From: Eunapius fragilis
Taxonomy: Eukaryota; Porifera; Demospongiae; Spongillida; Spongillidae
NCBI GenBank assembly: GCA_963681505.1
Contig: OY811985.1
Location: forward strand, 6,368,073 to 6,432,072
DNA length: 64,000 nt
Reading direction: 5' to 3'
Part shown: piece by piece, positions 3,051 to 50,760 of the stretch
How the letters are laid out: the number at the start of each line of letters is the position of its first letter
How positions within the stretch are numbered: the stretch's first letter is position 1
Notes under the pieces: model-generated
The model's database searches: none
Seen by the model: only the letters and a program-made list of their open reading frames with translations
Told to the model about the DNA's origin: nothing
Made by a program: the position numbers and the translations under genes

Positions 3051-3210
3051 ATGCAGGCCAAGGAGGTCCAGCACGTGCTGACGAAGCAGCTGGCATTTCT
3101 GACGGGTACGTGATTTTGGGCTATGCGCCTTGGTTGTATAGCAGTAACTGGTCGCATGCACTTTCATAGGTTACGCACGCATGTAAAAATAAATTCTAGT
3201 TGTACGGTAT

Positions 3211-3257
<47 letters not shown>

Positions 3258-9132: not shown

Positions 9133-9202
<70 letters not shown>

Positions 9203-11094: not shown

Positions 11095-11167
<73 letters not shown>

Positions 11168-19800: not shown

Positions 19801-19881
19801 GAGTAGAGGTCTTGAAAGGCAGCGGCCTGAGAGAGATAGCAATGTACCAGTAATGCACATCAATCATAGGGTTGAATGTGT

Positions 19882-19934
<53 letters not shown>

Positions 19935-20557: not shown

Positions 20558-20596
<39 letters not shown>

Positions 20597-23500
20597 ATTC
20601 CACACACATCATACCTGCTGTGAAAGTTGTGTATTTCAGTGATGTTGCAGAACACATCATTTCTCTTCCCTCTCAGCCTGGCTGGTAGGGCCACTATCTC
20701 TGGGCTCATTTCATCATAGTAGCTCTATAATGGAGGTTGGGATGAGGGCAGGTGGGGTGGGGAGGGATGGTGGGGAGAGTGGGATGAGTTGGGCAGAGTG
20801 GGGTGAATGGGGAAGGGTGAGGAGGGATGGTGAGGAGATGGGAGGGTGGGGTGAGCTGGGGAGGGGGGAGCCTATGGCAATGAAGGATCACGTACCGATA
20901 TAACATGCTGCATGTCAGTAACGTAGTCGCTCTCCGTTGTAACCAGTTCCTCGTAGATGTTCTGACGAGTCCTCAGCTCTTTTGGATCTACCTCTGTGTC
21001 TGTGTACTCTTGACCTGTTTCCTAGAGGAGGAAGGGGAGGAGTAAGGGAAGAGACAGGAAGGGGAGGAGTAAGGGGAGAGACAGGAAGGGGAGGAGTAAG
21101 GGAAGAGACAGGAAGGGGAGGAGTAAGGGGGGAGACAGGAAGGGGAGGAGTAAGGGAAGAGACAGGAAGGGGAGGAGTAAGGGGAGAGACAGGAAGGGGA
21201 GGAGTAAGGGGAGAGACAGGAAGGGGAGGAGTAAGGGGAGAGACAGGAAGGGGAGGAGTAAGGGGAGAGACAGGAAGGGGAGGAGTAAGGGGAGAGACAG
21301 GAAGGGGAGGAGTAAGGGGAGAGACAGGAAGGGGAGGAGTAAGGGGAGAGACAGGAAGGGGAGGGTAAGGGGAGAGACAGGAAGGGGAGGGTAAGGGGAC
21401 AGACAGGAAGGGGAGGAGTAAGGGGACAGACAGGAAGGGGAGGGTAATGGGAGGAGTAAGGGGTGAGACAGGAAGGAGAGTGGAGGTAAGGCATGGGGGA
21501 GGTGCACATTAAGGAAAGAGCAAGGAGAGAGGTGTGTACACATAGGATGCCCATGGGGGAAGCTAAGAGAACACAGACATCGAAGGCTTACAAGTATCAC
21601 TGTGTCAGATTGGCAGGAAGTGATGGGTGTGGTAAACTGGATGCTCTGGACAACAGATATGTCCTGGAGGGAAGAAGAGAAGTCGTTAGGAGAGAGAGTA
21701 AGCAGATGGAGATGCAAGGGTCACGTGTATGCCCATTGACACTGAAGATTACAATGTAGCACTGCCCCCAGGAGCTTGTCACTATACAACTATACACATC
21801 TCTTATATAGAGATACCCGCCCACTCATTTGCCACGCCTGCAGTGGGCTTACATTGTTCCCCCCCCCCCCCCCCCCTCCCCCTTACCTTTTTCTGGGTCC
21901 GCGTGCTAGCCACAGCTTGTGGTTTGGGGGGAGGCTGTAGGGATGCAGCCACAATTTTAAGTAGACCTGTCTTGCGGTTCTCCAACAATTCCCGAGCATG
22001 TTCAAGTCTGTCCAGTAGGAAGCCACATTCATGAGAGGCCGGGGGGGGGGGGGGGGGGGGGGTGTCCAAAGGACGCACCACTGCTGCTCACATCATTATG
22101 AACATGTATGCTGTACCCAATATTATTTACACATTGGGCTATTGTGGGACCATCTCTTTATAAATATTTTTTGCTTTGTACCATTTCGGTTTAGTGGTCC
22201 CTGTCCAATAGAGACTAGGTCAGGCCAATATGGTCCCTATCCAATACAGACTAACACACCTTGGGTCAGGCCAATATGGTCCCTGTCCAATACAGACTAA
22301 CACACCCACCTTGGGTCAGGCCAATATGGTCCCTGTCCAAGACAGACTAACACACCACGGTGAACTACATAGCTTACTTCTGTGCAGTCTTTTCTGCTGA
22401 CTTTTTCAGCTGTTTGTCTGGAAGGACTTTGGCCATCTCCTTAAGGACCTGGACCTGGGAAGTGCTTAGCTTTGTCAGGAAGTCATCCACTTTGGCGACA
22501 AGAGTGTTGGCAGTGTAGAAAGTGATGGTCTCCAACGATTGGCTTGCTAGGAACTCCAGTGACTGCTGTGACCATTGCTCAATCTATGGGGAACACCATT
22601 ACACAGCCCTTGAACAAACAACCATCTATTCAGTTAAGAACATGCATGGTAATTATACATGTGAAGGATGCAGTCAGTCCAAAGAGGCAATATGATTATT
22701 TAGTGGTAGCCACTTCACACGGTTGAATTAAGAATGTCTGGACAGCCTACCTGCCTCGTGCTTAGATGGAATTTAACTGTGACGATAAAAAGGTCTCTTT
22801 TTTGATTGCAGGTGGTGAAGAGAGTGTCGTAGGTTTGGGTCAGGTCTAGCAAGGTGCTTTGAACAAGTGATATTGCCTTCAGAGTGCAAGCGTGCATTGC
22901 TGGGTCAATGCCATCCTGGGATGGGAAGTGCGGGATGCAGAGGTCTTGCCCCTCCTCCTTCATACGGCTCATGTGATCATCCATCGTCTGTTGAAGGGAA
23001 GGGGGGCAGGGCTTTAAGAGGTGGAGAGGGTAACAAAACGATGTGAGGGTGCAGGGGGACAGCAAACAGTCGGGAGGAGGGGATGGTGGCTGGAAGGGTG
23101 TGGTGGGTAAGTACACATGACGTGGGTGATGCTTAAATGTCCTCAAAAAGGCGAATTCAGTATATGAACAATAGGCATAGATACTGCCCTTGAAATGCTT
23201 CTGATGTGAATGATATTTGTGTTCTTACCCAAATCACCTTTTAAAGTTACAGTGGTGTGCTTCTAATTAGTCCCCATGTGTACCTCTTTGCACTTGATAA
23301 CAAAGTTCTCATGCTTCTCTCCCAGTTCAAGGGCAGCTTCCAGGGTGTCCCCTATCACAACCTCACCAGTGACATCCTTCTGATGCTCTTCCATTAAGTA
23401 CTTTACCTGTGAGCGTGATTATGTGGTGAGTGCGTGTAGCACACAAAAAAGATAAGTATGTTATGAACACACGCACATGAACACACACACACACACACGT

Positions 23501-26500
23501 GCACATATGTGGTCACACAGTGTGGTTTGAACGCTGTAGTACTCTTCTCTTAATGATTACACACAATGGGTAAGAAAGCAAAGTTACTGCTGTTTTCAAA
23601 TCACTTCCTCAAATCCTTATAGCCACATAACAGATTCCATACAACTGATTCACCTGTGACCAATAGACAGCTTCTCTCCTCACTGGGTTTCCCTTTTCCC
23701 AATCGTCTCACCTTATTAGCTGACTTCTTGAAATGGCAGATCCTAAGGAAGTGGTCGATCCGTGCCTTGTGTATGCTCCAGAACGCGTTGCTGTCCTTCT
23801 CTGTCACTTTGAGCTCTTCCAGCAGCCCATTGAGGGAGGCTATCATGGAGTTGTAGTCCTTGGTCATGGCTGTCCCCATCTCCTCCTCACTCGGGTGGTT
23901 GAGGTGTTTGAGGAAGGTGTGGATGGGCATCTCTGCCTCAGTGAGCAGTGTGAACATCCTCTCTCTCTTCATCAGGCTATCCTGCATCATCTTCTCAGCT
24001 CCTCTGACGTCATCTGGCATCTCGACTGAGTCAAGGGACATCTTGATCCTTGGAACCTCGTCTCTCACTGTTGCACACAGGTTGCAGATGTGCTCGTATT
24101 CCTAATTAGAGCACGTGCAAGATGTCAGGGTCTGGGTTTAAAAGGTAAGGCGTGCAAAGTACCAGTCTGTTCTGTGTCCATCTCTGGTGATTATATGCCA
24201 TCAGGCCTCCCATCTCCTTTGGTATCTGGGTTGGATCAAGCTGAGGCAGGTCTTTGCCTATGTTATAGAAGTACGATAACTATTACATTAAAGGGATGTG
24301 TGGGGAGAGGGAGGTCATAGTGCAGGGAGGGGGCAGTATGGGGGTGTGAGGAGGGGGCAGTATGGGGGTGTGAGGAGGGGGCAGTATGGGGGTGTGAGGA
24401 GGGGGCAGTATGGGGTGAGAGGAGGGGGCAGTATGGGGTGCGAGGAGGGGGCAGTATGGGGTGAGAGGAGGGGGCAGTATGGGGTGCGAGGAGTGGGCAG
24501 TATGGGGTGAGAGGAGGGGGCAGTATGGGGTGAGAGGAGGGGGCAGTATGGGGTGAGAGGAGGGGGCAGTATGGGGTGAGAGGAGGGGGCAGTATGGGGT
24601 GAGAGGAGGGGGCAGTATGGGGTGAGAGGAGGGGGCAGTATGGGGTGAGAGGAGGGGGCAGTATGGGGTGAGAGGAGGGGGCAGTATGGGGTGAGAGGAG
24701 GGGGCAGTATGGGGTGAGAGGAGGGGGCAGTATGGGGTGTGAGAGGAGGGGGCAGTATGGGGTGAGAGGAGGGGGCAGTATGGGGTGAGAGGAGGGGGCA
24801 GTATGGGGTGTGAGAGGAGGGGGCAGTATGGGGTGAGAGGAGGGGGCAGTATGGGGTGAGAGGAGGGGGCAGTATGGGGTGAGAGGAGGGGGCAGTATGG
24901 GGTGAGAGGAGGGGGCAGTATGGGGTGAGGGGAGGGGGCAGTATGGGGTGAGAGGAGGGGGCAGTATGGGGGTGTGAGGAGTGGGCAGTATGGGGTGTGA
25001 GGAGGGGGCAGTATGGGGGTGTGAAGAGGTGGCATTTTGGGGAAATGTGAGGAGGTGGCAGTTGTAAGGGAGTGTGTGGAGGTGGAGATGTGAGATGTTG
25101 TGTTGGACAAAGAAGGCAGTGAGTACAGACTCCCCTCATGGGCACAAACTGGACCTTAAGTTTGTTAGCCAGCTCAGCAGAAACCATTGGTTTGGGCTTC
25201 ACAAATAGAAAAGGCTTGATTAGGACATACATGACATGTGATGTTACAGCGCAGTTCCCAGACTGCAGACGATGGGCAATAAAAAGAACAACGATCAGCA
25301 AGTGGACATGGTGCAAGCATGATGGAACATTGGGTTGGCTTGTTTATGTATGTCAGATACACGAGTGTTAATGTGTTTAGTAGTGTAGGTGTGTGTGTGT
25401 GTGTGTGCACACCCCCCATGGATTTACTATGTATTAATCAAATGTGCAAATGTGTATGTAAATATGGGATATGTGACATTAGAAAATATAAAGCTTTAAT
25501 TTTCTTTAGTGGAAATGTCACACATAAAAATTTACATACACATTTGGACCACATTAAATACATTGTAAATCCAAATTATTAAGCAGTGTATGTGCATGTA
25601 TACCACTTATGGGTGAAGGGACTCACAGCCATCATCTCTAGGACAGCATTGACCACACCCCTAGTACTGGAGCTGGTAGCATCCACCAACACAGTGACCT
25701 GGTCATCACTTGGAGAATGGCAGAGGGGGAGGAGGGGGGGAGGGGGAGGAGGGGGGGAGGGGGAGGAGGGGGGAGAGGGGGAGGAGGGGGGAGAGGGGGA
25801 GGGGGGGAGTAATATTCTATAATGCAAAGTTGGATCTTAATAGCGATGTACATATTCATTTAAATGTTTTCTTAATCTAATGCCTTCCCAGGGTGGAAGT
25901 GTACATCCAGGGTAGGGGAGAGTAGGGGAGTGTGGGAGTGTGCTTTCAGAGTAGGGGAGTGTGCTCCCAGAGTAGGGGAGTAAGGGAGTGTGGGAGTGTG
26001 CTCCCAGGGTAGGGGAGTAGGGGAGTGTGGGAGTGTGCTCCCAGGGTAGGGGAGTAGGGGAGTGTGGGAGTGTGCTCCCAGGGTAGGGGAGTAGGGGAGT
26101 GTGGGAGTGTGCTCCCAGGGTAGGGGAGTAGGGGAGTGTGGGAGTGTGCTCCTAGGGTAGGGGAGTAGGGGAGTGTGGGAGTGTGCTCCCAGGGTAGGGG
26201 AGTAGGGGAGTGTGGGAGTGTGCTCCCAGGGTAGGGGAGTAGGGGAGTGTGGGAGTGTGCTCCCAGGGTAGGGGAGTAGGGGAGTGTGGGAGATACTCAC
26301 ATACCATCTCCTGCTATGCACACATGTACACACCCACGCCCATTGAGCCATGCCTTCAGTCAGTTGTGACACATCAACTAATACCACACCCAGTTAATAT
26401 TAGGTCACATGTGTTAATAAGTTTTCATGCAGCACACTCCCCTACTCCCCTACCCTGGGAGCACAAGTACCAAAGGAGATGAGAGGAAGGAGGAGTGGGG

Positions 26501-28072
26501 AAGGGAGGGGAGGAAGGAGAGGGGGTGAAGAGGGGAGGAAGGAGTGGGGAGGAGAAGAGGAGTGTGGAGGGATCGAATGAGGGAAACACATTAGGTGGAA
26601 CCCAAAAAAGGACTAAAGCCAATTGATTTGTTTGATGTGAACGAGGTGTGGGTGTATTATACATGTCCATACATGTGAACGAGGTGTGGGTGTATTATAC
26701 ATGTCCATACATGTGAACAAGGTGTGGGTGTATTATACATGTCCATACATGTGTTACATCAGGGTAACCACAGCATTTTAGTGAGGGTGTCTCACTTTAA
26801 TAGGCTTCTGAAATACTTGAGGGTAAGGCTGAGATCATCAACTGCTGGACGGTCCGTGTTGAGTGACTTCAGACCAACTTTGGGGATGGTTAAGATAGCA
26901 TAGGGGCCATCCATGCCACCTGATGCAGTGAGGGAGGGAAGGGGGGGGGGGAGAGAGAGGAGGGAAGGGAAGAGGGGGGGATGGGAGGAGGGTTCCAAGG
27001 GAAGAGGGGAGGAGAGGGAGGGTCCCGAGGGGAGGAGAGGGAATGTACAGTTTGTATGTTGTTTGTTGTGTGACACTCACCAGTTAGGTACGCCAGCTGC
27101 TTGTCTAACACATGTTTGATGTCCTTAGCCATCAGTTTGACACCTACATAAGTCCCCCCCCCCCCCAAATAGAGAATGATTTAACCCCTTAGCCTCAGGA
27201 TGCATTATACACCTTAGCTGCATGGTGTGTGTGTGTATGTGTGTGTGTGTGTGTGTGTGTGTTGTGTGTTTGTGCACTTTGCTGATGCCTGTCAGTGCTA
27301 TGTAGGTATGCATGCCAATGGATATGTCTACAACCATAAATATAGCCCCCTAGGTGTGGACAAACACACTGTTGGGTCGTATTGAAGTCGGTGCCAGTGT
27401 GCCTATCTCCACAAATGTACTGCACATCACAGAACTGTATGTATTCCCTTGCCTAGTTCAGTATGATACACAATCACATGTGTAAATGTGACCGTTCAAG
27501 TACATCTGATGTCCCTCTCTCAGCTAATATCCCAGAGTGGACCTACATATAGAGCTAATATTCAATGGTATAAATGCCGCCACTGAAACCAGTGGCGGTT
27601 TCGTGGTCTACTGCGGTCCGGTCCGACGAGACGTTGAGTGGAGTCGCACCAAGGTAGCCGAGTTCGCATACATTAATATACCAATACATGTATAAGCGAC
27701 AGTGCGACGGAAAGAGCATACGACCAGGACTATTTTCTGCGCTAGAATTAAGGTTACTAGTATACCCCCGCGTAGATAAAAGTTGGTACCGCTATGGCCA
27801 AACCAATGCTAACCATACAGTAAGCCCAGCCAAACTTCCAAACAGTACTATTGAGTTGGATTCAAAAACGGCTTAGTGCGGAACTATAAACAATAACTTT
27901 ATCAGTGCTGTGACTTACATTGCGTCGTTGCAACGTTATCTTTTCCTTCGTTGTGTTCAGCCTCTTTTTTTGACAGAAGGGGTTCCTTTGAGGATTCCGC
28001 ACTGGCTGCCATTGTGGGCACTGGATCTTCAACGTCTTGTGCACGTAATTCTGACATGCGCACGGGTTCCAT
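13859..28072 (-). CDS. MCF2L: Dbs/MCF2L-like Rho guanine-nucleotide exchange factor 2 (inverted paralogue)
   Basis: Exons in transcription order: 27919-28072, 27081-27143, 26796-26919, 25627-25708, 25155-25262, 24163-24279, 23712-24101, 23284-23406, 22751-22987, 22378-22583, 21887-22007, 20896-21021, 20615-20724, 19971-20040, 19728-19826, 18969-19061, 18252-18380, 17384-17419, 16937-17104, 15919-16011, 15765-15843, 15448-15507, 14904-14967, 14483-14649, 14224-14315, 13859-14086. Frames close throughout, about 1112 aa. Domains: N-terminal extension 1-55 (starts MEPVRMSELRAQD), CRAL-TRIO 55-216, spectrin-like 217-535, DH 580-784 (YLIKPVQRITKYQLLLK), PH 800-910, SH3 1040-1105 (GWWWVR, EGWVPASYL). 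Exons of 124, 390, 123, 206, 110, 70, 99, 93, 36 and 79 bp match RhoGEF 1 exactly. Three extra exons lie between PH and SH3. The donor at 14483 is the least certain. The intron after 15919 has a GC donor (CAG/GCAAGC). Confidence 0.92.
14320..14436. repeat. Purine-rich short tandem repeat
   Basis: GGAGAGGGTAGGAGAGG-type units directly upstream (in gene sense) of exon 14224-14315 of RhoGEF 2, giving its acceptor a long pyrimidine tract on the minus strand. Confidence 0.85.
14666..14812. repeat. 42-bp minisatellite, about 3.5 copies
   Basis: Units containing AGTAGAAGTGTAGGGTGG, with only scattered changes, in the intron before exon 14483-14649. Confidence 0.85.
15000..15372. repeat. About 32-bp minisatellite
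   Basis: Units alternate GGCCACAAGTATAGGGGG and CTATAAGTATGGGG types. They fill most of the intron between exons 15448-15507 and 14904-14967. Confidence 0.85.
16021..16757. repeat. 26-bp minisatellite, about 28 copies
   Basis: Units of 26 bp contain TTAGGGTGTAATATGG. The array starts ten bases from the acceptor of exon 15919-16011. Variation is almost confined to one G/A site, and one unit carries a deletion near 16595. Confidence 0.92.
17107..17345. repeat. GGAGA-type purine tract
   Basis: About 240 bp of GAGGAGGAGAGG simple repeat adjacent to the PH exon 16937-17104. On the gene strand it is a pure pyrimidine run leading to the acceptor. Confidence 0.9.
17798..18250. repeat. 20-bp minisatellite next to a donor
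   Basis: Units read TCCATTACACCCTTAAGTGC with variants. On the gene strand each contains CTTAAGGG, the sequence just inside the end of exon 18252-18380, followed by GTAATGGA-like intron sequence. It looks derived from the exon end with the splice site itself deleted; that last point is inference. Confidence 0.8.
18520..18962. repeat. 41-bp minisatellite, about 10 copies
   Basis: Units contain GGGTCATCAGCACACCC. The array begins a few bases inside the intron after exon 18969-19061 of RhoGEF 2. Confidence 0.9.
19172..19727 (-). repeat. Exon-end minisatellite with repeated 5' splice sites
   Basis: Exon 19728-19826 ends GAGGCCTTCTTTAGG and its donor is GTAAGGATTGGTCAAAT. The array after it repeats this junction: 34-bp units carry GGCCATCTTTAGG/GTAAGG, the most distal copy keeps the exact 15-bp exon tail, and shorter 23-bp units have lost part of it. 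There are roughly 20 units. Reading past the first donor meets TGA within seven codons, so only the first donor gives a full protein. Confidence 0.85.
20065..20245. repeat. 33-bp minisatellite
   Basis: Five to six units containing TGTGGGGTCATTTAGC, just outside the acceptor of exon 19971-20040. Confidence 0.88.
20476..20597. repeat. (CA)n microsatellite with interruptions
   Basis: CA-rich run with periodic ATGC interruptions, next to the donor side of exon 20615-20724. Confidence 0.9.
21025..21480. repeat. 27-bp purine minisatellite
   Basis: Units AAGGGGAGGAGTAAGGGG plus AGAGACAGG, about 16 copies, adjoining the acceptor of DH exon 20896-21021. As 27 is a multiple of three, long false reading frames appear on both strands. 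Confidence 0.9.
22190..22350. repeat. About 47-bp tandem repeat
   Basis: Three copies containing GGTCAGGCCAATATGGTCCC, close to the donor end of exon 22378-22583. Confidence 0.8.
24315..25045. repeat. 23-bp minisatellite, about 31 copies
   Basis: GGGGGCAGTATGGGGTGAG units fill the intron between exons 25155-25262 and 24163-24279 of RhoGEF 2. Sequence between units is almost uniform, with a few TGTGAG variants at the ends. Confidence 0.92.
25418..25575. mobile_element. Palindromic MITE, copy B
   Basis: The two halves are complementary over most of their length (GGATTTAC at the left, GTAAATCC at the right, internal TATGTGACATT / AATGTCACA). It shares these features with the element at 42098-42308. 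It lies inside an intron of RhoGEF 2. Its outer ends look shorter than in copy A, and I found no clear target duplication. Confidence 0.7.
25722..25809. repeat. GGGGGA-type purine tract
   Basis: G-rich purine run just outside the acceptor of exon 25627-25708. Confidence 0.85.
25905..26290. repeat. 37-bp minisatellite, about 10 copies
   Basis: Units contain GGAGTGTGCTCCCAGGG, itself partly palindromic (GGGAG..CTCCC). A single unit-like fragment is repeated in reverse orientation at 26433-26465, suggesting a local inversion or transfer. Confidence 0.88.
26640..26757. repeat. 38-bp tandem repeat, three copies
   Basis: GTGTGGGTGTATTATACATG units in the intron after exon 26796-26919. Confidence 0.85.
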
Positions 28073-33526: not shown

Positions 33527-34224
33527 ATTACATGTAATAGTCCCCCCCCCCCCCCCCCTTTCGGTGACCCACGCCTATTGCGTGACTATCCTGGATCCGC
33601 CACTGATAATATAAAAAACCCCTAGTAAATCTGCTTTATACTCAGTGCAAGTAAGGTTTTGAGAACAGCATCAAGGCATGTCCGCAAGGCTGACATAAAT
33701 CATACATGTGTTTTTAAATGCTTTCGTAACAGAATGCTGTTGCACGTGCCACATCGGAGCTTGGTATAACCTTTCTCCAGTTGAAGTGGAATGATGAGGC
33801 TAGCTTCAGAATACCAGAAGAGGACCTTGAGCAGGCTGTAAGGTTCATTCACCTGGGGAGGATGGAAGGAGGCTCTGTGCTGGTACACTGTGCTCAGGTG
33901 AGGATATATCATTGGTGGTGTGTTTAGGACATCATCAATGGTGTGTTTAGGGGAAGAGACATCATCAATGGTGTGTTGTTTAGGGGAAGTAACTTGTCAA
34001 TGCTTCAAAATCGATCATTTTAGGGGAAGTCCCGATCTGCCACAGCAGTGATAGCATACCTTATGGTTATCCTAAACAAATCGTGTACTGAGGCATTGGT
34101 GACCGTGCAAGACGCAAGAAAGATGGCTGAACCAAATCCAACCTTCTTACAAATGTTGAGACAATTTGAGAGATCTCCATTAATACAACTATTACGCAGA
34201 GAACTCCATTCCCAGCCATCATGA
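32892..34224 (+). CDS. Dual-specificity protein phosphatase
   Basis: Removes phosphate from Tyr and Ser/Thr residues. Exons 32892-33056, 33180-33374, 33733-33897 and 34024-34224 give 241 aa with consistent phase 0 joins. The catalytic loop HCAQGKSRS (about 172-180) satisfies HCX5R and is split by the last intron. The likely general acid is Asp in LKWNDEAS (about 141). The core fold starts near residue 70 (GGLYLGGFGAV, THVLNTAGG). The first 60 residues form an extension with FQPHPMKANFCIGC, which has a CxxC pair and could be a small zinc-binding element; that is inference. The start is the first ATG in good context. It is convergent with the trefoil gene that ends at 34823. Confidence 0.92.
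33470..33605. mobile_element. Foldback palindrome with one hAT-like end
   Basis: AATAGGCGTGGGTCACCG plus a G-run is followed by ACTATTACATGTAATAGT, then a C-run and the exact complement of the left arm ending at 33579. Just outside, CCTGGATCCGCCACTG at 33590-33605 resembles the terminus of the hAT-like MITEs at 45710 and 62775. No matching left terminus is seen, so this may be a broken element. It lies in intron 2 of the phosphatase gene. Confidence 0.65.
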
Positions 34225-34822
34225 TGTATTCGGTGTATATAATTATTACTTTTTAAATTACTTTCTTTCAAATGCACATAAAAAGTGCTGTAAGGTTCAA
34301 TTACAATGACAAGACACTAAATCAGGCACACGTTAAGGTACTTGTAACCAACCACTCTTGTAACTTTATTACAATGATTGGTGACTTTGTAACTATCAAG
34401 ATAGACCCATTCCTGAAAGGTAGGTACAACACAGGTCACAATGAGAGAGACATCATGGGTAGACGTGGGGTATATTAACCAGTTTGAGAGACCTGGATAT
34501 TAACCATCATTCACATTTCCATGTGTACATGTTCCACAGCTTAAAATGATAGTATAACACACTGTACAAAGACCACATACCATAACATCAAACACAGTCA
34601 TTAGTTCAGGTAGCTGGCAGCCTTGCAGGGAGTCACTGCCCCTTGGCAAGGACTTACTTGCTACATTGTAGTTGTATCAGAGCTGCGAGCATCTTTGGGG
34701 CACAAAAGGAACAATCACATGTGACCATAGTATGTGGGGGTGGGGCACTACACTGGGCATGTCCTGTGGGGCGTGGCAATGGGGGCAGGGCACTACACTG
34801 AGCATGTCATGTGGGCGGGGCA
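34225..34822. other. Region between convergent phosphatase and trefoil genes
   Basis: Untranslated tails of both genes. A possible alternative last exon of the trefoil gene (34661-34692, minus strand, ending DTTTM) lies here. No independent gene seen. Confidence 0.4.
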
Positions 34823-37800
34823 CTACTGGCATGTGATCTTTAGCACAATACACATACCCCAAAATAGCAAGGAAAAAGATGTTACTGGAGACTGCCCTGC
34901 TGGCTGGATAGTGATGTAGCTACCGGGGGAAGACACAGACTCGAAGCACACATTGCCATCAGACCTCTCCTTGAGGTAGAAGTCAGAATGGAAATTTGGC
35001 TCTCCCTAAGAGAAGGTACCACATTTCAACTTTATCATTTTGGATTACATACCAACAATGACACAACTGATGGTCGCTTAGCAACAGTTGATCTGATAAC
35101 CCTTACTGTTTACACCTCACCATGGCAACAATAACCCAAACTGATCAAAGCATTTGACTCACCTGACCAACTGTGACAAAGTTCACCACTCTCAACCTGA
35201 AGTTGGGACGTCCGTGAGCAGACAAGGAGTATGTGCCCACACCACGATCACACACCTCAAAGCGAGCTAAAGCGAATGGATTTCAGGGTGCAGTATAAAT
35301 GTTGTGTATGCATCAATCAATATGCATACTAATCTATTACGTTAAGTACACTGGCCTTTGGTACCCTTACTGTGTGGACACTGGCCTTTGGTACCCTTAC
35401 TGTGTGGACACTGTCCGTTGGTACCCTTACTGTGTAGACACTGGCCTTTGGTACCCTTACTGTGTGGACACTGGCCGTTGGTACCCTTACTGTGTGGACA
35501 CTGTCCGTTGGTACCCTTACTGTGTGGACACTGGCCGTTGGTACCCTTACTGTGTAGACACTGTCCGTTGGTACCCTTACTGTGTAGACACTGTCCGTTG
35601 GTACCCTTACTGTGTAGACACTGTCCGTTGGTACCCTTACTGTGTAGACACTGTCCGTTGGTACCCTTACTGTGTAGACACTGTCCGTTGGTACCCTTAC
35701 TGTGTAGACACTGTCCGTTGGTACCCTTACTGTGTGGACACTGGCCGTTGGTACCCTTACTGTGTAGACACTGTCCGTTGGTACCCTTACTGTGTGGACA
35801 CTGGCCTTTGGTACCCTTACTGTGTAGACACTGTCCGTTGGTACCCTTACTGTGTAGACACTGTCCGTTGGTACCCTTACTGTGTGGACACTGGCCTTTG
35901 GTACCCTTACTGTGTGGACACTGGCTGTTGGTACCCTTACTGTGTAGACACTGTCCGTTGGTACCCTTACTGTGTGGACACTGTCCGTTGGTACCCTTAC
36001 TGTGTGGACACTGGCCTTTGGTACCCTTACTGTGTAGACACTGGCCTTTGGTACCCTTACTGTGTGGACACTGTCCGTTGGTACCCTTACTGTGTAGACA
36101 CTGGCCTTTGGTACCCTTACTGTGTGGACACTGGCTGTTGGTACCCTTACTGTGTGGACACTGGCCGTTGGTACCCTTACTGTGTGGACACTGGCCGTTG
36201 GTACCCTTACTGTGTGGACACTGGCCGTTGGTACCCTTACTGTGTGGACACTGGCCTTTGGTACCCTTACTGTGTGGACACTGGCTGTTGGTACCCTTAC
36301 TGTGTAGACACTGTCCGTTGGTACCCTTACTGTGTAGACACTGTCCGTTGGTACCCTTACTGTGTAGACACTGGCCTTTGGTACCCTTACTGTGTGGACA
36401 CTGTCCGTTGGTACCCTTACTGTGTAGACACTGGCCTTTGGTACCCTTACTGTGTGGACACTGGCCGTTGGTACCCTTACTGTGTGGACACTGGCCTTTG
36501 GTACCCTTACTGTGTGGACACTGGCTGTTGGTACCCTTACTGTGTAGACACTGGCCTTTGGTACCCTTACTGTGTGGACACTGGCTGTTGGTACCCTTAC
36601 TGTGTGGACACTGGCCGTTGGTACCCTTACTGTGTGGACCCTGGCCGTTGGTACCCTTACTGTGTGGACACTGGCTGTTGGTACCCTTACTGTGTGGACA
36701 CTGGCCGTTGGTACCCTTACTGTGTGGACACTGGCTGTTGGTATCCTTACTGTGTGGACACTGGCCTTTGGTACCCTTACTGTGTGGACACTGGCTGTTG
36801 GTACCCTTACTGTGTGGACACTGGCCGTTGGTACCCTTACTGTGTGGACACTGGCTGTTGGTACCCTTACTGTGTGGACACTGGCCGTTGGTACCCTTAC
36901 TGTGTGGACACTGGCCGTTGGTACCCTTACTGTGTGGACACTGGCCGTTGGTACCCTTACTGTGTGGACACTGGCTGTTGGTACCCTTACTGTGTGGACA
37001 CTGGCCGTTGGTACCCTTACTGTGTGGACACTGGCTGTTGGTATCCTTACTGTGTGGACACTGGCCTTTGGTACCCTTACTGTGTGGACACTGGCTGTTG
37101 GTACCCTTACTGTGTGGACACTGGCCGTTGGTACCCTTACTGTGTGGACACTGGCTGTTGGTACCCTTACTGTGTGGACACTGGCTGTTGGTACCCTTAC
37201 TGTGTGGACACTGGCCGTTGGTACCCTTACTGTGTGGACACTGGCCGTTGGTACCCTTACTGTGTGGACACTGGCCGTTGGTACCCTTACTGTGTGGACA
37301 CTGGCCGTTGGTACCCTTACTGTGTGGACACTGGCCGTTGGTACCCTTACTGTGTGGACACTGGCCGTTGGTACCCTTACTGTGTGGACACTGGCTGTTG
37401 GTACCCTTACTGTGTGGACACTGGCTGTTGGTACCCTTACTGTGTGGACACTGGCCGTTGGTACCCTTACTGTGTGGACCCTGGCCGTTGGTACCCTTAC
37501 TGTGTGGACACTGGCTGTTGGTACCCTTACTGTGTGGACACTGGCCGTTGGTACCCTTACTGTGTGGACCCTGGCCGTTGGTACCCTTACTGTGTGGACA
37601 CTGGCTGTTGGTACCCTTACTGTGTGGACACTGGCTGTTGGTACCCTTACTGTGTGGACACTGGCCGTTGGTACCCTTACTGTGTGGACACTGGCCGTTG
37701 GTACCCTTACTGTGTGGACACTGGCCGTTGGTACCCTTACTGTGTGGACACTGGCCGTTGGTACCCTTACTGTGTGGACACTGGCCGTTGGTACCCTTAC

Positions 37801-40800
37801 TGTGTGGACACTGGCCGTTGGTACCCTTACTGTGTGGACACTGGCTGTTGGTACCCTTACTGTGTGGACACTGGCCGTTGGTACCCTTACTGTGTGGACA
37901 CTGGCCGTTGGTACCCTTACTGTGTGGACACTGGCCGTTGGTACCCTTACTGTGTGGACACTGGCCGTTGGTACCCTTACTGTGTGGACACTGGCCGTTG
38001 GTACCCTTACTGTGTGGACACTGGCCGTTGGTACCCTTACTGTGTAGACACTGTCCGTTGGTACCCTTACTGTGTGGACACTGGCCGTTGGTACCCTTAC
38101 TGTGTGGACACTGGCTGTTGGTACCCTTACTGTGTGGACCCTGGCCTTTGGTACCCTTACTGTGTGGACACTGGCCGTTGGTACCCTTACTGTGTGGACA
38201 CTGGCCTTTGGTACCCTTACTGTGTGGACACTGGCTGTTGGTTGTGGCGATGACATTTCCATCCTCACTAATGGCAAGGTAGGTGTGGTCCTGTCTCATG
38301 TAGAGCTGCACAACACTCCTATCCCTCATACGGTTCTGCAATTGGCACAAGTGTATCAGGAGAGTGCAGATCTTAGTGTGTGGGATATCATGCACTCTGT
38401 AGCAGAGCACACATAAATACACACCCCCCACACACATACACCATGTTCACAAGCAAAGATGAAAGTGTGTATAACTGTGTAAAACACCATTGTTAAGAAC
38501 ATACAGCGATGGAAGGCCATCCAAAGGGAGTAGTGATGACAGATGAAGGAGAGTACTTTTGCCTCTGCAATGAAAGAAACAACAGCCAATACTAAGACAC
38601 TGCTGCTAGGAATCCAACATGACTAGGTGACTAATGTCCTTCAGATGACTAGGTGACTAATGTCCCTCAGATGACTAGGCGACTAATGTCCTTCAGATGA
38701 CTAGGTGACTAATGTCCTTCAGATGACTAGGTGACTAATGTCCTTCAGATGACTAGATGACTAACGTCCTACAGATGACTAGGTGACTAATGTCCTTCAG
38801 ATGACTAGGTGACTAATGTCCTTCAGGTGACTAGGTGACTAATGTCCTTCAGGTGACTAGGTGACTAATGTCCTTCAGGTGACTAGGTGACTAATGTCCT
38901 TCAGATGACAAGGTAACTAATGCCCTTCAGATGACTAGGTGACTATGCACATCAGATGACTAGGTGACTATGGTCCTTCAGACCAATGTACATCAGATGA
39001 CTAGGTGAATAGCACAGACCAAAACAGCTCATACCTCAATCCGCACAACAAACTGTGTTTCCTCTTCACCAAAGTTGGCAAGACAAGCAATGCTTTCTTT
39101 AGAGATGCTTAGTGAATGACCCCGCCTTGAGCAGGACTCTAGAAAGACACAGTTATCCAAGACCACATGGACAAGGAAGTGACAGGACAGTCCAGGCTGA
39201 TCCTGGGAGGGTAGTGAGAAGAGGAGGTGGAGGGGGAAGAGGAGAGGGGAGGAGGGAAGGGGCAATGTTGTCAAACACCCACAGACAATGCTACAGCAGG
39301 CATGTTACGAGGAAGCTTGCACAGCTACCTGAGAGCAGGCATGTTACGAGGAAGCTGGCACAGCTACCTGACAGCAGGCATGTTACGAGGAAGCTTGCAC
39401 AGCTACCTGATAGCAGGCATGTTACGAGGAAGCTTGCACAGCTACCTGACAGCAGGCATGTTACGAGGAAGCTTGCACAGCTACCTGACAGCAGACATGT
39501 TACAAGAAAGCTGGCACAGCTACCTGACAGCAGGCATGTTACGAGGAAGCTTGCACAGCTACCTGACAGCAGGCATGTTACGGGGAAGCTGGCACAGCTA
39601 CCTGATAGCAGGCATGTTACGAGGAAGCTTGCACAGCTACCTGATAGCAGGCATGTTACGAGGAAGCTTGCACAGCTACCTGACAGCAGGCATGTTACGA
39701 GGAAGCTGGCACAGCTACCTGACAGCTGACATGTTACGAGGAAGCTGGCACACCTACCTGACAGCAAAGTGTTTCATCTTGCACTGAAATGAAGCTCTCC
39801 ATCTCGTCATTGACACTCTTCACCATGACAACATCAGGTGGTGCTTGTGGAGGAACCACCACTACCAGATAAGCTGCAAGAAGAGGCAGTAGCACGAAGA
39901 GATGACACAGCCAACAGGCTGGGACAAATGCTGAAAGCTTACTTACTTTTTGGATTGGAAAAGGCACCATTACCACATATGGTTCCACCTGACATCTGGA
40001 TTGGATATCGGTTAGCACAGGCTACCAGCTGAATGACATTACCCTCACGAAAGGCATCCTGAGTAATTAATTACATATACATGTGATGGATCAATGATGT
40101 GGCATAAAAGTTCGTACAATGAATAGCAATGGCTGACAATCAAATCAACAATCAGCTACAAATAATAGCTACAGGATGGACACATCACTTACCATAATGG
40201 TATAACCTTGAGGAGGTTGAAAGCCATTGGGCGACTGGGGCAAAGGTGTGTAGGGAGGAGGAGGAGGAAGGGAACAGAGGTTGGATTGGGGGAGCTGAAA
40301 TTGAGCTGGATTCCATGAGGGGAGGGGAGGTGGAGGGAGTGGCCACAAACTCTCTACTGTGTCACCATTATCTGAACGCTAAGAGAGAAAAAGCCAGCAG
40401 TGTTGATCAAATGTGCCACACATGTACAGAAGGTTCGAGACTCATACAAGTGATGAAAGGAGGGAGGGGAGGATGGGAGAGAGGGTCCTATTGTTATTCA
40501 CAATAGGGAGATGGAAAGCAGTAGAAGTGACAGGGGAAAATTAGATACAGCTAACACAGTGTGTGTGTGTGTGTGGGAAGGGGGGGGAAGAGAGAGGGAA
40601 ACCACTTACTAGTTTAAACTCCTCCTCAAACTCAAACTGTTGGTTTGCAGAAGTGGGAGATTGAGAAGGCGATGAGACGAGCCGCGTGTTGGGGGCGGGG
40701 CTCCCTCCTTCCACATCAAGCACACAGCCATCCAGCACAGATACAATGAGATTGCCCCTCCTCCTCCATCGCTGACTCTCGTTATAATCATAGTCAGCTA

Positions 40801-43020: not shown

Positions 43021-45574
43021 TTAAGCCTTGGGCACCAACACCATAGCAGCGTTCCTATATAGCCAATACTCCAATGACAGCTGGTTCAAGCCTATTGAAC
43101 AAAAAGTAAAATTAAGGGGGGAGGGAAACCATTGGGATACACTTACTGGTACAAAATCAAACTGCTGGTTACTGGATGTGGGATGGTTTCTGGACCACAG
43201 AAGCACTTTAGCACCAGCTGCCCTGTTGCTACCCTCAATGTCAAACATAAACCCACTCTTGGATACAATGTAGTTCCCTTCCCTCCTCCATCGCTGGTTG
43301 TCTCCACCATGACGGTCCCACACTATAAGCTTGGATCCTTGTGTTTGTCCTCCACAGTCCAGGGCCTTACCATGGAGCTTGGAGATGATCAGGAAGGTTC
43401 CATCTGGTTGGTAGTCTAACTGCCATAGCTGGTTGTCAGTAGGTGGGTTGTTTGCTGGATACATGATAACTTCAACACCGTTATCACGTTTGCTCCCTGG
43501 AATATCCAGCACGTAGCCATTGAGGTGGGATTTGATGTGATGATGCTGGAGAACATATTCAGTGAATAATTACTGTCAACATACACATGCACTGTATTTG
43601 AATGGAAATGTCCTCTGGATGAAAAATGCACACAAATATTTTAATGTCTTTCATCACAAGGGGTACAATTTTATACCCTGTGATTTGTTTGCTGTTCAGC
43701 CCTTGAAGGGACCTAGCTAAATTTAACAGTACTGGCCCATAGTACAAGTCCTTTCAGGGCTGGGCCAAGATAGATAAAGCTTAAACCCTATCGATGCACA
43801 TAAAACAAGCTATGCTACATTTACACATACAGCTCTACTTGAACAGAGTGTTTTACACATATCGGGCTCAGGCCTGGCCCAATCTTGAAAGGAATTGAAC
43901 TACATGTTAAATGCAATTAATTTGACATTAGTGTCAATACTAGCTTCTAGATCATTTTTATATTGCCCTGCATAGTAATGAATTACCATGTATGGCTGAA
44001 TAACAACACAAGCCCTGCTAACATACTTGAGGATAAGCTTGTTGAGGATATCCAGGCTGAGGGGGATATCCATATGCAGGCTGAGGGGGGTATCCAGGTT
44101 GAGGGGGGTATCCAGGTTGAGGGGGGTATCCTGGCTGAGGAGGATATCCGGGCTGGGGGGGATATCCGGGCTGGGGGGGATATCCGGGCTGAGGAGGATA
44201 TCCAGGCTGGGGGGGATATCCAGGCTGGGGGGGATACCCAGGCTGGGGGGGATATCCAGGCTGGGGGGGGTATCCAGGCTGGGGGGGATATCCAGGCTGG
44301 GGGGGATAACTTGAAGGCTGAGGCTGATAACCCTGGAGATGGTGAATACAAAGATCAAATATATTTGCACTATCAAGTCACTTTTCTTCTAAATAATACT
44401 TCTGCAGTAATGGTTATTAAAAGTACTAGCCAAAATCCATATAAGGACATGTTCTACACATGCATCAGCATGCAGAACTTGGTAGGGTGCCTCCTCTCAT
44501 AGGGGGTTAACATCAGTAAGCATTGTGTGTTAATCACTTACATGGGGCTCAAGATCAAACTGCTGGTTACTGGATGTGGGATGGTTCCTGGACCACAGAA
44601 GCACTTTAGCACCAGCTGCCCTGTTGCTACCCTCAATGTCAAACATAAACCCACTCATGGATACAATGTAGTTCCCTTCCCTCCTCCATCGCTGGTTGTT
44701 TCCACCATGACGGTCCCACACTATAAGCTTGGATCCTTGTGTTTGTCCTCCACAGTCCAGGGCCTTACCATGGAGCTTGGAGATGATCAGGAAGGTTCCA
44801 TCTGGTTGGTAGTCTAACTGCCACAACTGGTTGTCAGTAGGTGGGTTGTTCTTGGGATACATGATAACTTCAACACCGTTATCACGTTTGCTCCCTGGAA
44901 TATCCAGCACGTAGCCATTGAGGTGGGATTTGATGTGATGATGCTGGTATTGGCAAACACAATTTATAAATGGTAGTGGTATATACATAATTATCGTTTT
45001 ACACCACACCTAACCTAGTCTGGGGCCCTATTGATTGTTGTGATAGTCCAGACTGATGGTACTACACCTAACCATGACAAATGATCGCTGTTACATCAGG
45101 CAGACGGCCGATTTGCAGACGCGCGCGTTCTATTTATAGCCATTACCTAATTTATCTATTTATAGCTGTAATCTTTTTGGAGTTGCTTAAAAATTCATAC
45201 CTGACCCTGCTTGGATAACAGCATATCCATAAATGGGTAAAATATTACCTTTGGCACCAACAACAGGGCCCGAGGGGCGGTTCATATATTACATCGCAGC
45301 ACTACATGAGCCGAGCAATGGGGCATAAAAAGCGCTTCATTTTCCCTACGCTTGTAACGTAACAGACTTTTGAAGACGTGTGTACTTTACAAAATCTAGG
45401 CGATGGCGTACATCAACCTGAGTAACCAAAAACTCGCTAAAACAAGAGACTGATTTGCAAATTTCAACCCGAGTTGGCACGACTCTTGTAGCCCTTGAGT
45501 ATAAAATGTACGCAGAATGACTCTTGCATCTCCACAGAAAAAGACCTACTATTAATAAAATAACTCACCGTCAT
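43021..45574 (-). CDS. Tandem lectin L2: trefoil - (GYPPQP)n - trefoil
   Basis: Exons 45569-45574 (only ATG ACG), 44542-44943, 44027-44332, 43147-43545 and 43021-43080 are all phase 0 and give 390 aa. Residues 3-136 and 239-371 are ricin-type beta-trefoils, each starting [17 protein letters not shown] and carrying [14 protein letters not shown] and NQQFD. Between them 102 residues are mostly GYPPQP hexapeptides. The last exon adds [20 protein letters not shown]-type trefoils usually bind galactose-type sugars; GYPPQP linkers resemble flexible, self-associating PGYPPQ regions of annexins and similar proteins. No signal peptide is present. The gene is one of three tandem copies on this strand and downstream of the related multi-trefoil gene. 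Confidence 0.88.
43655..43955. repeat. Intronic insertion shared by L2 and L3 but not L4
   Basis: A block of about 290 bp containing CAGCCCTTGAAGGGACC and a mirrored GGTCC/GGGCTGGGCC stretch interrupts the intron between the linker and second trefoil. A similar block lies at 48480-48790 in L3. L4 runs straight through at about 60945. Its ends are not clearly defined, so I call it only an insertion. Confidence 0.55.
44040..44318 (-). repeat. Coding 18-bp repeat (GYPPQP)n of L2
   Basis: About 14 units of 18 bp, GGATATCCCCCCCAGCCT type, in the frame set by both splice sites. Each unit contains the palindrome GGATATCC. Two other frames are also open (PPAWIS and PPSLDI types), but only the GYPPQP frame joins the flanking exons. 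Confidence 0.9.
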
Positions 45575-45700
45575 CTTGGCTTAGCTAGCTGCCTGCGACT
45601 AACCACACCCAATGTCTCACGTGTCTTTCCACATGTAATAGATAAGATTCATGATTTGCATTGCGCAATCTGATTGGTCAATTGCAGGTATCTCAACACA
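45575..45700 (-). promoter_or_regulatory. Conserved 5' flank of lectin L2
   Basis: The sequence upstream of the two-codon first exon (GCTAGCTAAGCCAAG just before ATGACG) is retained in all three lectin copies (50761-50879 and 62641-62760), as is the first intron. Conservation across copies suggests the core promoter moved with each gene. Confidence 0.5.
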
Positions 45701-45709
45701 GTAGAAACC

Positions 45710-45999
45710 CAGAGGCGGATCCAGGGGGTGGGGGGGGGGGGGGGGGAGGGGGGGTTGCAACCCCCCCTTTCAAACCCGTAATGAATGATTATCATTAGTA
45801 ACAATGAAGTAAAGATGGCTGAAATTCGTAATACAACTGCAGCTCTGCGAGCAAACAAACGGCAAGGCAGTATTATGTAGTGTTGTGCGCATGATATAAT
45901 TAAAAAACGTTGGCGGTTGGGGCTCCGCCCCAGACCCCCTCCCCCGCTCATGACATTAATTAGCAATCCCCCTTTTCTGAAATCCTGGATCCGCCCCTG
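45710..45999. mobile_element. hAT-like MITE, copy in unit 1
   Basis: Ends CAGAGGCGGATCCAGG and CCTGGATCCGCCCCTG are inverted repeats. AAACC flanks both sides (45705-45709, 46000-46004). The matching empty site CAGTAGAAACCTCAAG is present in unit 2 near 54098. The terminus is hAT-like, but the duplication is 5-6 bp rather than the usual 8. Confidence 0.82.
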
Positions 46000-46247
46000 A
46001 AACCTCAAGAGGGATTCTAAGAGGAGTAATAGAAAGGGGGGGGGGGGGGGGGGGGGGTATTCTAAAAACATTCGGTATCCATGTTGTTAAGCCATGCAAA
46101 CTTGATTATTAGCCCGCGTACCTGCACATTTTATTATTCATATCATCACGTGACACAATATCGCACGTGCCTTTGGAGAATTGACAAATTGACGAAGTGC
46201 ATGGAAACGAATGACGCTCGTATCAGGACACACAAGACCCATACAAC

Positions 46248-46841
46248 ATGGACAGTCATTCCAATGGATACGGGTCTGACGACTGTTTTCTAAAATTGTC
46301 ACCAGAGCTTGATGTCGATGAAGAATTTTCGTAGACAGGGTTTATATTATAGCCTTACGAAGGATCCGTTAACATTTTGTGGATGAGCAGATGAATACGA
46401 AATGAAGGACACAAAGTATTCAAACCTTCTTGTGTCACTCTTGCCAGATGCATCATCATACATTCTGCATCAGAAAGCGGGAAAATAGTCCCTTTCTTTC
46501 AGTCCAAATGTGCAGCCGCCTATAACAACTCTGCATGGAACAGTAATTCAGTGCAAAGAATGCTATATGTGGCGCTTGGTATTCTTCAAACTAGACTTAG
46601 TTGGTGCACGTAACACCTTCCGGAAGATGTTTCATACACATGTGGAGTATCTTTTGATGATCTTTCTGTTCCTGATGGAGAGCTTATCATCTATGATCAC
46701 AGGTGTGGGAACGTAATTGCAGCATTATATTATCCTGCTGGATTTGAGGACAAATGAGTTTGCTGCAACAACAGTCAAGGTTTCAGAGTCTTCTTACCCT
46801 ATGCGTTCTGCATGCTGCCAAACCAAGGAACCTATCAATAG
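46248..46841 (+). pseudogene. Unknown gene U, copy 1 (probably broken)
   Basis: Starts ATGGACAGTCATTCC and gives an acidic 28-residue frame (SPELDVDEEFS) before a stop. Later blocks read LHGTVIQCKECYMW and a Cys-rich C-terminal frame ending TAG at 46839-46841. That last frame is interrupted here (GACAAATGA) but open in copy 2 at 63294-63880 (GACATATGT). Similar blocks in unit 2 (56031-56340) keep a longer middle part. I do not recognise the family. Exon joins are unresolved. Confidence 0.4.
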
Positions 46842-47843
46842 AAGAAAGTCAACTGTTTCATGACTGGCCCATGGCTATCATTTGTTTGTGGAAGTCTTTT
46901 TTGTATTCATGTCTTTTTTTTTGATAAATGATTGTGAGCTCTGTTTCGAATCATGTTTTGATTTTTACTGAAAGGACTGATTTAAAAATCCTCTGTAAAA
47001 ACCAATTGAACATTAAAATTGGATGCATGTGATTTTTGTGTGATTTTACTTTCAATCACGCAAAGATTCCAAAATGATTCTACGCGTCAGCAAGCTTTAT
47101 ATAAAATGTAATGAAAGGCCACGAATCAAAAATATGTGAATGACTAATTAATTTGTCGTGGCCTTTACATTAAAAAAATTGTTAAAGATGATGTACTTTC
47201 ATTGTCATGCATTTTATACTGCCTGACAGACAGTCAATCGTCTCCGGAGTATGCTTATAGTATGTGTAATATTAATGCATTTTGTTCATAATAAATCATA
47301 CCAGGCAGTGACGATGCAAAGGCTAGAGGTAGATCATGTATTCCTCTAATAGCGTAGACCATACAGTGGTGAGGCCATAAAGCTGCAATGGTTTTAGCCT
47401 ATTAAAGCGAAGAGCAAATCGAGTCTCCATTTGCAATTCGCACATACACACGTCATGTGGTCTTCCACTGTAATGTTTGCAGCTTGTGCCTGTGCACAAG
47501 CGCAATCCAGAAGCTGGCGTCACAAAACCTCACAAAATTGATCAATATTTGGAGAAAAAGTCAACATTGAACTAAAGAAAAGTGTATCTAACTATTCTAC
47601 AGTTCGTTCTTTTTCTACAGCCAAATTTCCACTTCTGAATCAAGCCTGTTGAAGAAAAAAGCATTTAAAATGGTATCCTGAGGTAATAGAACTGGGGAGT
47701 ACACAGGAAGGGGAGACCTTTTTACAACTAAAGGGTGAGGGGGAAGAAACTAGGGGGGTGGGGGGAATACATATTTACGTTAATAAACCAAGGGGGTGAA
47801 GGGATACCTTTAATATAACTATTGGGGGAAACTAGGGGGTAAG
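46842..47843. other. Spacer between unit U1 and lectin L3
   Basis: AT-rich spacer with a conserved block (GACGATGCAAAGGCTAGAGG) that recurs at 57930-57950 in unit 2. Near 47600-47650, minus strand, a possible remade last exon of L3 follows acceptor CTTGATTCAG. No other gene seen. Confidence 0.45.
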
Positions 47844-48011
47844 TTAAGGGATACAACAGGGAGAAAGAGACCTTAATATAGGGGGAAGGGAGATCTTAAT
47901 ACAACTAGGGGGGTCGAGAAGGGTGACCTTTAATAAAGGTATTATTGTAAACTGTCCAATTAGGAAGAATCGGGGGGGGGGGGGGGGGAGAAACCATTGG
48001 GATACACTTAC

Positions 48012-50760
48012 AGGTACAAAATCAAACTGCTGGTTACTGGATGTGGGATGGTTCTTGGACCACAGAAGCACTTTAGCACCAGCTGCCCTGTTGCTACCCT
48101 CAATGTCAAACATAAACCCACTCATGGATACAATGTAGTTCCCATCCCTCCTCCATCGCTGGTTGTTTCCACCATGACGGTCCCACACTATAAGCTTGGA
48201 TCCTTGTGTTTGTCCTCCACAGTCCAGGGCCTTACCATGGAGCTTGGAGATGATCAGGAAGGTTCCATCTGGTTGGTAGTCTAACTGCCATAGCTGGTTG
48301 TCAGTAGGTGGGTGGTTTGCTGGATACATGATAACTTCAACACCGTTATCACGTTTGCTCCCTGGAATATCCAGCACGTAGCCATTGAGGTGGGATTTGA
48401 TGTGATGAGGCTGGAAAACGTATTCAGTGAACAATTACTGTTAACATACACATGCACATCACAAGGGGTACAATTTTATATCCAGTGGTACAGCTAAGAT
48501 TTGTTTGCTGTTCAGCCCTTGAAGGGACCTAGCTATATTTAACAGTACTGGCCCATAGTACAAGTCCTTTCAGGGCTGGGCCAAGATAAATAAGGCTTAA
48601 ACCCTATTGATGCACATAAAACAAGCTATGCTACATTTACGCATACAGCTCTACTTGAACAGAGTGTTTTACACATATCGGGCTCAGGCCTGGCCCAATC
48701 TTATAAGGAGCTGCACTACATGTTAAATGCAATTAGTTCGACATTAGTGACAATACTTGCTCCTATATGTACATCCCAACATTAAATGTGGGCAAGTTTG
48801 AAGACAACACCATCACTCTAAAACATCCTAAAACTGTATTTTGAGGCTAATCACTATCAAACAAATATTTTGAACGACTGATTCCACCATCTTTTAACAA
48901 TATACTTAACCTCCAGTTTGCAGCGAAATTACTGTGCACAGTAACATCGAAGCTGAACTATAATTTTAATGTCTCCCGAAAGATGATCATTTTTATATTG
49001 CCATGCATAGTAATGAATTACCATGTATGACTGCATAATTGTCAATAAAGCCCTGCTACAAATGTTAACCAGTACAACCACATATGAGTACATACTAGTG
49101 GACAGGCTTATTGAGGATATCCTGCCTGAGGGGGACATCCATATGCAGGCTGAGGGAGGTATAGGGGGTTGAGAAGGATATCTTGGCAGGGGAGGATATC
49201 CCTCCCAGCCTTGATATCCCCCTCAGCCTAGATATCCCTCTCAATCTGGATATCCTCAGCTGGATACCCCACTCAGCCTCGATATCACCCCAGCCCAAAT
49301 ATCTTGGGGGGGGGGGAAATAACTTGAAGGCTGGGGTTGATGATGATGAGGATACAAACCATCACCCTACATTTCAATGTGAGCGCTACTTTTCTATTCC
49401 TTGTCCTGGAAAATTAAAAAGTATCACAAGGGTGATTTTGCTGGACACTGCACTATGGAGTGACTTTTCTTCTAAATAATACTTCCGCAGTAATGGTTAT
49501 TAAAAGAAATAGCCAAAATCCATATAAGGACACATGCATCAGCTGCAGCAGTACTTGGTGAATTACAGCAGGGTGGCTCCTCACATAGGGGGTTAATATC
49601 AGTAAGCATTGTGTGTTAATCACTTACTTGGGGCTCAAGATCAAACTGCTGGTTACTGGATATGGGATGGTTCTTGGACCACAGAAGCACTTTAGCACCA
49701 GCTGCCCTGTTGTTACCCTCAATGTCAAACATAAACCCACTCATGGATACAATGTAGTTCCCTTCCCTCCTCCATCGCTGGTTGTTTCCACCATGACGGT
49801 CCCACACTATAAGCTTGGATCCTTGTGTTTGTCCTCCACAGTCCAGAGCCTTACCATGGAGCTTGGAGATGATCAGGAAGGTTCCATCTGGTTGGTAGTC
49901 TAAGTGCCACAACTGGTTGTCAGTAGGTGGGTTGTTCTTGGGATACATGATAACTTCAACACCGTTATCACGTTTGCCCCCTGGAATATCCAGCACGTAG
50001 CCATTGAGGTGGGATTTGATGTGATGATGCTGGTATTGGCAAACACAATTTATAAATGGTAGTGGTATATACATAATCATGATACTAGATGAATTTGTTG
50101 TACACATTTGAATATGCACTGATTATGTCGGCGCGTTATTGCATCTTTCTCTATGTACGTTGACATAATGGAATTGCGTTTAGCCTATTAAGTCATGTAG
50201 GCGTTACATCTATGGCGACGTGACCACAAACCATGAAAGATGCCAATTTGAAGATCATCGTGAACATGCTACCTGCCACAAAAAAACGGTTGTGCCCACA
50301 AGGTTAAATCATCTCTACAAACAAGCCATATTTAGGCATAAATCGATTAAACAACACGTCACGTAGCCACCCACACCTAACCAAGTCCGTGGGCCCGACC
50401 GATTGTTGCCGACTGATGGTTGTACTATAAACACCTTAAAATAACAGCATATCCATAAATGGGTAAAATATTACATTTGGCACCAACAACAGGGCCCGAG
50501 GGGCCGTTCATATATTACATCGCAGAACTACATGAGCCGAGCAATGGGGCATAAAAAGCGCTTTGCTTGTAACGTAACAGACTATTGAAGACGTGTGTAC
50601 TTTACAAAATCTAGGCGATGGCGTACATCAACCTAAGTTAACCAAAAACTCGCTAAAACAAGAGACTCATTTGCAAATTTCAACCCGAGTTGGCACGACT
50701 CTTGTAGCCCTTGAGTATAAAATACATCTCCACAACTATTAATAAAATACTCACCGTCAT
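48012..50760 (-). CDS. Tandem lectin L3: two trefoils, linker exon damaged
   Basis: Exons 50755-50760 (ATG ACG), 49628-50029 (trefoil 1, 134 aa) and 48012-48410 (trefoil 2, 133 aa) are intact and phase 0. The trefoils keep NQLW, NQRWRR and NQQFD, and are highly similar to L2 and L4. The linker exon between them (about 49098-49340) has lost its CTCCAG acceptor, and part of its GYPPQP array (about 49190-49300) is inverted, so in-frame stops appear. The usual last exon (acceptor AACCAG then CTGTCATTGGAG) is not present; a different acceptor near 47640 could supply a new end. Because all exons are phase 0, direct splicing of trefoil 1 to trefoil 2 would still give a lectin. Functional status is uncertain. 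Confidence 0.7.
49098..49345. repeat. Rearranged GYPPQP array of L3
   Basis: The outer parts read the repeat in minus-strand sense, but 49190-49300 reads GGATATCCCTCCCAGCCT-type units in plus sense. The switch points fall on GATATC palindromes, which suggests an inversion between inverted GGATATCC sites. Confidence 0.8.

Follow-up and report, generated by a model that had tools for sequence, protein, structure and literature searches.

Introduction

The minisatellite of the human gene IFI6 (6-16) is built of about 26 copies of a 12-bp unit and, as Turri reportedly found in 1995, supplies multiple splice donors. Two of its downstream units act as donors and give rise to further mRNAs (PMC4526556). 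Mirages, a name coined in cephalochordates, are minisatellite-like tandem duplications of exon–intron boundaries in Adh3, in the globin genes Gb6 and Gb9, and in TnC; they leave regular splicing undisturbed and are unstable in length (PMC3087553, PMC3902484). Internal tandem repeats at exon–intron boundaries have also been reported for human genes in segmental duplications, where units average 30 bp and copies about 4; such repeats can alter splicing and have been discussed as a source of new introns (PMC2812944).

An earlier note on a 64,000-nucleotide stretch of sponge DNA (the window, whose numbering is used below) singled out an array of this kind and stated that no class of such exon-end minisatellites had been described, which the lancelet mirages and human IFI6 contradict. 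By anatomy, as far as it can be read from the DNA, the 96-unit array belongs with the mirages, IFI6, and the human boundary repeats. Like the mirages, it is made of tandem units that combine the end of an exon with adjacent intron sequence, many of them with splice signals, with a unit of 30 bp here and of 10–72 bp in lancelet Adh3. Unlike them, it has 96 units, all with the same donor and open in frame, and whereas the units reported for lancelet Gb6 (3 or 6, of 150–160 bp) lie at an acceptor, those found here lie at a donor. The array resembles IFI6 in being an exon-end minisatellite that repeats a 5′ splice site; the use of several donors is known there from transcripts, whereas the sponge array is known from genomic sequence alone. 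With the human segmental-duplication repeats it shares 30-bp boundary units, the difference being that the intron is here older than the array. Copy number, donors identical throughout, and an open frame are the features that, on this reading, set it apart from the known kinds.

Structure of the array

The array occupies positions 35348-38242 of the minus strand as a single block, for which TRF reports a period of 30, 96.5 copies, 95% matches, and 0% indels. A script count on the same strand found CACAGTAAGG 96 times, with all 95 spacings equal to 30 bp (95/95), and the donor CACA/GTAAGG in 96 of 96 units, from 38220 to 35370. The unit spans an exon–intron boundary of a coding gene: it joins the final 22 bases of the exon at 38221-38335 (minus strand), ACCAACAGCCAGTGTCCACACA, to the initial 8 bases of the intron, GTAAGGGT. 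This exon comes from a predictor and is supported by a beta-trefoil match; its tail recurs unaltered, letter for letter, in 21 of 95 units. All 96 donors are identical over nine bases and lie 30 bases apart, and ACA/GTAAGG, which scores 5.7 bits with a generic position-weight matrix, makes a plausible 5′ splice site in 96/96 units. The minisatellite of exon end and donor, put at about 96 copies in the earlier note, is therefore real, with the approximately 97 consecutive donors claimed there coming down to 96 in the script count.

The exon closes with ...NSQCPH and a single base of the following codon (phase 1), and the 30-bp minisatellite begins directly after it. Translated in the frame of the exon, the units give SKGTNGQCPH and variants thereof, and this frame stays open across all units until a TAA at 35342-35344 (minus strand), just past the last one, so that a transcript retaining the full intron would encode a truncated protein. 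The first GTAAGG, identified as the original donor by the introns of paralogs, is at 38215-38220, and the last one in the array, which would leave an intron of 104 nt, is at 35365-35370 (both minus strand). Splicing at donor k would add k-1 decapeptides (range 0 to 95), and not k as had been proposed. The statement that all units are in phase 1 without a stop or an indel agrees with the 95/95 spacings and with the frame, and the idea that the choice of donor would set the number of decapeptides is supported by anatomy, phase, and open frame.

The units vary, with ten types following one another in irregular order, and the array contains duplicated blocks: a run of nine types appears again 15 units on, and a run of seven types 10 units on. 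In this one assembly, the block duplications are in keeping with a mirage-like instability of length. We hold it to be very unlikely that the length or uniformity of the array was produced by the assembly and that far fewer units exist in the genome. Near-identical long arrays are hard to assemble, and a single assembly is at hand, but ten unit types in irregular order are not one block copied many times.

Among units 1-95, six of the 30 positions are variable. Taking all unit positions as equally likely to vary, the chance that no variable position falls within GTAAGG is P = 0.23, and within the nine-base donor 0.09. Five of the six within-unit variants alter the amino acid and one is silent, so the decapeptide is not visibly conserved; the 90 possible single changes in the unit include 3 that create a stop and 18 that are silent. 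Given these P values and the scarcity of stop-making changes (3/90), neither the open frame nor the constant donors require selection, and selection on the donor was rejected as unneeded. The invariant GTAAGG, in which the earlier note saw either very recent spread or selection, is thus real as a constancy (96/96), with selection unsupported. The 0% indels are likewise unremarkable here, because the same value was found for 12 of the 26 large arrays in 179 kb (the 30-bp array included), six of them with periods not divisible by three.

Host gene and age of the intron

The exon that carries the array is preceded by an upstream exon at 39035-39202, which starts at 39202 or 39139, and followed by the next exon at 35163-35266 (RFEVCDRGVGTYSL...) and by a further exon of the trefoil part at 34895-35005, whose 3′ end is not fixed (all on the minus strand). 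These four exons join in phase. The 110-residue join of the last three matches the FGF and fascin domains with 20.5 bits each, slightly below the Pfam cut-offs of 24 and 23.1 bits, respectively. With the 145-residue join, the matches were designed symmetric beta-trefoil proteins, with a best E = 2.6e-8, and FGF10, with E = 0.03; the former value adds up three equal repeats, and the strongest individual stretch is weak (12.7 bits). We take the product of the host gene to be a beta-trefoil protein of the FGF/fascin type. The first-donor product gives an ungapped alignment to the beta-trefoil unit across the junction, and this alignment, together with knowledge of the fold, would place the decapeptide insertion in a turn before a strand, between two strands of the unit.

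Searching the same genome with the joined protein turned up paralogs on C10 and C15. Read by eye, two of them share a phase-1 intron at this position: the C15 copy, with the donor AGAA/GTGAGT and the next exon CATACTTTGAGG, and one C10 copy, with CACA/GTATGT and CATTCTTCAGG. In a second C10 copy the next exon matches that of the first, and the upstream exon was not found. The cores of the 30-bp unit are absent from L027, L028, L029, and L033. Since two paralogs have the phase-1 intron without the array, the first donor is older and the array younger, and a gain of the intron by tandem duplication was rejected. The homologous intron of a C10 paralog holds an array of its own at L028 7366-7445 (minus strand), with about 4 copies of the 19-bp unit GTCTGTAAGGTATCAGCAT, which lies a few tens of bases beyond the donor and is free of exon sequence.

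Elsewhere in the window, positions 40541-62000 (minus strand) contain a cluster of ricin-B-type lectin exons, two stretches of which were tested in Pfam; several exons are nearly identical, and 18-bp arrays lie between some of them. One 18-bp array, at 44018-44377 (minus strand), translates in one of its frames to repeated YPPQPG and may itself be an exon.

Other exon-end arrays and the minisatellite background

Reading the flanks of 21 arrays, with the help of a home-made exon predictor, revealed three further arrays in the window that start from the end of an exon, with its donor in the repeats. One of them belongs to the same gene (39293-39766, minus strand): it starts at the end of a predicted exon at 39758-39873 (minus strand) and has 39-bp units with 12 donors CAG/GTAG and an in-frame stop in the unit. 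Another, at 19188-19747 (minus strand), combines 34-bp with 23-bp units and carries GTAAGG as a donor 19 times, where use of the second would lead to a stop; it starts at the end of a predicted exon (...SAECEAFFR, 19728-19826, minus strand) of a gene that, from a motif, we presume to resemble RhoGEF. The last is short and was spotted by eye at 8972-9067 (plus strand), with units mostly of 21 bp, five AGGTAA, and a second donor that also leads to a stop; it starts at the end of a predicted exon (...NIVDIHKFHS, 8868-8977, plus strand) of a gene related to the RhoGEF-like one with the 34/23-bp array.

Judged on the predicted exons, the second donor would bring a stop codon into the message in 3/3 of these arrays, so that a normal protein there needs the first donor. 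The neutral alternative raised in the earlier note, that the first donor always wins, is favoured by these predicted stops. Comparison with the 39-bp array is imperfect, because its first donor, GTAGGT, is stronger than the GTAGCT of its copies, a difference that the 96-unit array does not have. Only the latter is open among the four exon-end arrays, which is about what chance would give: by our own arithmetic, a unit of free length is open and a multiple of three about once in five.

These observations weigh on the possibility that a regulated or stochastic choice among the donors yields proteins whose trefoil loop holds varying numbers of decapeptides, which we regard as unlikely. The chance openness of the unit, the stops that bar three comparable arrays, the non-silent character of 5/6 variants, and a donor constancy within chance all speak against such a choice, which would otherwise fit the phase 1 and the frame open through all 30-bp units, the insertion point placed by alignment between strands of the trefoil unit, and the use of downstream units as donors in IFI6 (PMC4526556).

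Tandem repeats make up 18.4% of the 279 kb examined (the window and its neighbourhood), and 70 of 176 predicted introns hold arrays; one 10-kb sample, L048 (C8:3300001-3310000), consists of 59.5% tandem repeat according to TRF. The 20-mer at the exon end is repeated downstream of 5/208 predicted donors, vs 1, 1, 0, 0, and 0 in swapped introns, and a 20-mer is repeated upstream of 2/219 acceptors, vs 0, 1, 0, 1, and 0. The five donor cases are the 39-bp array, the 34/23-bp array, one predicted exon present in both copies of a duplicated stretch, which was judged overlong from its peptide, and one isolated match farther away; the 96-unit array is missing from this list, its exon having scored below the cut of 18. 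When the cut was set to 14, arrays crossed 6/337 donors vs 1/348 acceptors. Three of these six donor crossings were accepted (96-unit, 39-bp, and 34/23-bp arrays), and the other three were discarded, being the overlong exon just mentioned (twice) and L036 6207, apparently a repeat within coding sequence. Within predicted introns, 14/82 arrays lie across or at most 10 bases from the donor and 3/82 at most 10 from the acceptor, where uniform placement expects 3.9/82 for either end, a count on which we do not build, as some of these arrays are pairs that stem from a single duplication, exon positions are predictions, and free space is required at the acceptor. No further exon-end array was accepted outside the window and its duplicated copy, where few candidates were looked at closely.

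Genome-wide, CAGGTAAG occurring three times with gaps gave 789 matches vs 33 for the reversed word; two permuted words gave 745 (reversed 76) and 1024 (reversed 2), and the looser GTRAGT occurring three times gave 9129 vs 13521 for its reverse. The similar counts of the permuted words mean that a few long arrays determine the CAGGTAAG count, and a genome-wide enrichment of donor-bearing arrays was rejected. Such arrays look like part of a general growth of minisatellites that chanced to start at an exon end.

The window also holds what we take, from their motifs, to be two related RhoGEF-like genes in opposite orientation, at 1-12059 (plus strand) and 12575-28050 (minus strand), many introns of which have an array of their own. 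At some homologous introns the minisatellites of the pair differ in their units, a sign of fast turnover. A RhoGEF-like gene, together with its arrays, is covered by a tandem duplication whose copies are about 11.2 kb apart (130-854 and 11330-12059); the duplication also appears upstream of the window on C15 (C15a 33540-37777 and 44740-48977). Just before position 1193 there is a stretch of about 200 N. Arrays at 14328-14435, 14662-14812, 17111-17340, 21029-21453, 25722-25807, and 26932-27031 stop 6-13 bases short of a predicted acceptor; being mostly rich in C and T on the strand of the gene, they may themselves supply the polypyrimidine tract.

Donor usage

It is likely, on the genomic evidence, that the 96-unit array is an ordinary but very long, nearly neutral array of the mirage type, with a dominant first donor and perhaps minor forms longer by 10 or 20 residues. 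A tandem duplication would have captured the last 22 bases of the exon and the first 8 of the intron, and unequal exchange or slippage would have brought the array to 96 units. Because the copies lie towards the intron, neither the exon nor its original donor would have been lost, and the spliceosome would mostly pick this first donor, beside the normal exon. Later donors would probably be minor, limited to the next one or two, and would add 10 or 20 residues in the beta-trefoil turn. The array would be almost neutral, in a genome rich in intronic minisatellites. Dominance of the first donor is expected because of the ungapped trefoil match, the paralogs, and the three arrays with harmful later donors.

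The lengths of the introns count against this preferred explanation. The first donor gives an intron of 2954 nt, a length reached or exceeded by 4/179 predicted introns, whereas the last one gives 104 nt, and 21/179 are of this length or shorter (median 370); introns of 104 nt are thus usual and those of 2954 nt rare, and intron definition could favour late donors. If donors near the array end were used, with the frame open to its end, the usual protein would contain a decapeptide repeat of up to about 950 residues. We consider this highly improbable, as the exon of about 2965 nt would exceed any confidently predicted one (longest 2438, median 133) and the paralogs have no such insert. Rather improbable, too, although the anatomy would permit it, is a VNTR protein made by splicing, where dozens of identical donors would let transcripts of a single allele differ in the decapeptide count of the trefoil loop, producing a length ladder without any change in the DNA.

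Implications

A search with the Antp homeodomain gave 7 matches, with identities of 44-49%; five fall within about 110 kb of C16. No closer Hox match appeared, which would fit a sponge better than a lancelet. If the host is not a lancelet, arrays of the mirage type are more widespread than their name suggests. Competition between 5′ splice sites is usually studied with few sites, and here there are 96, identical over nine bases, the choice among which would be read out directly by the number of decapeptides per transcript. The three other boundary arrays of the window, with different units and with stops, are ready comparisons. The 96-unit array is unusually long, clean, and readable, and could serve to test how a choice is made among identical splice sites.
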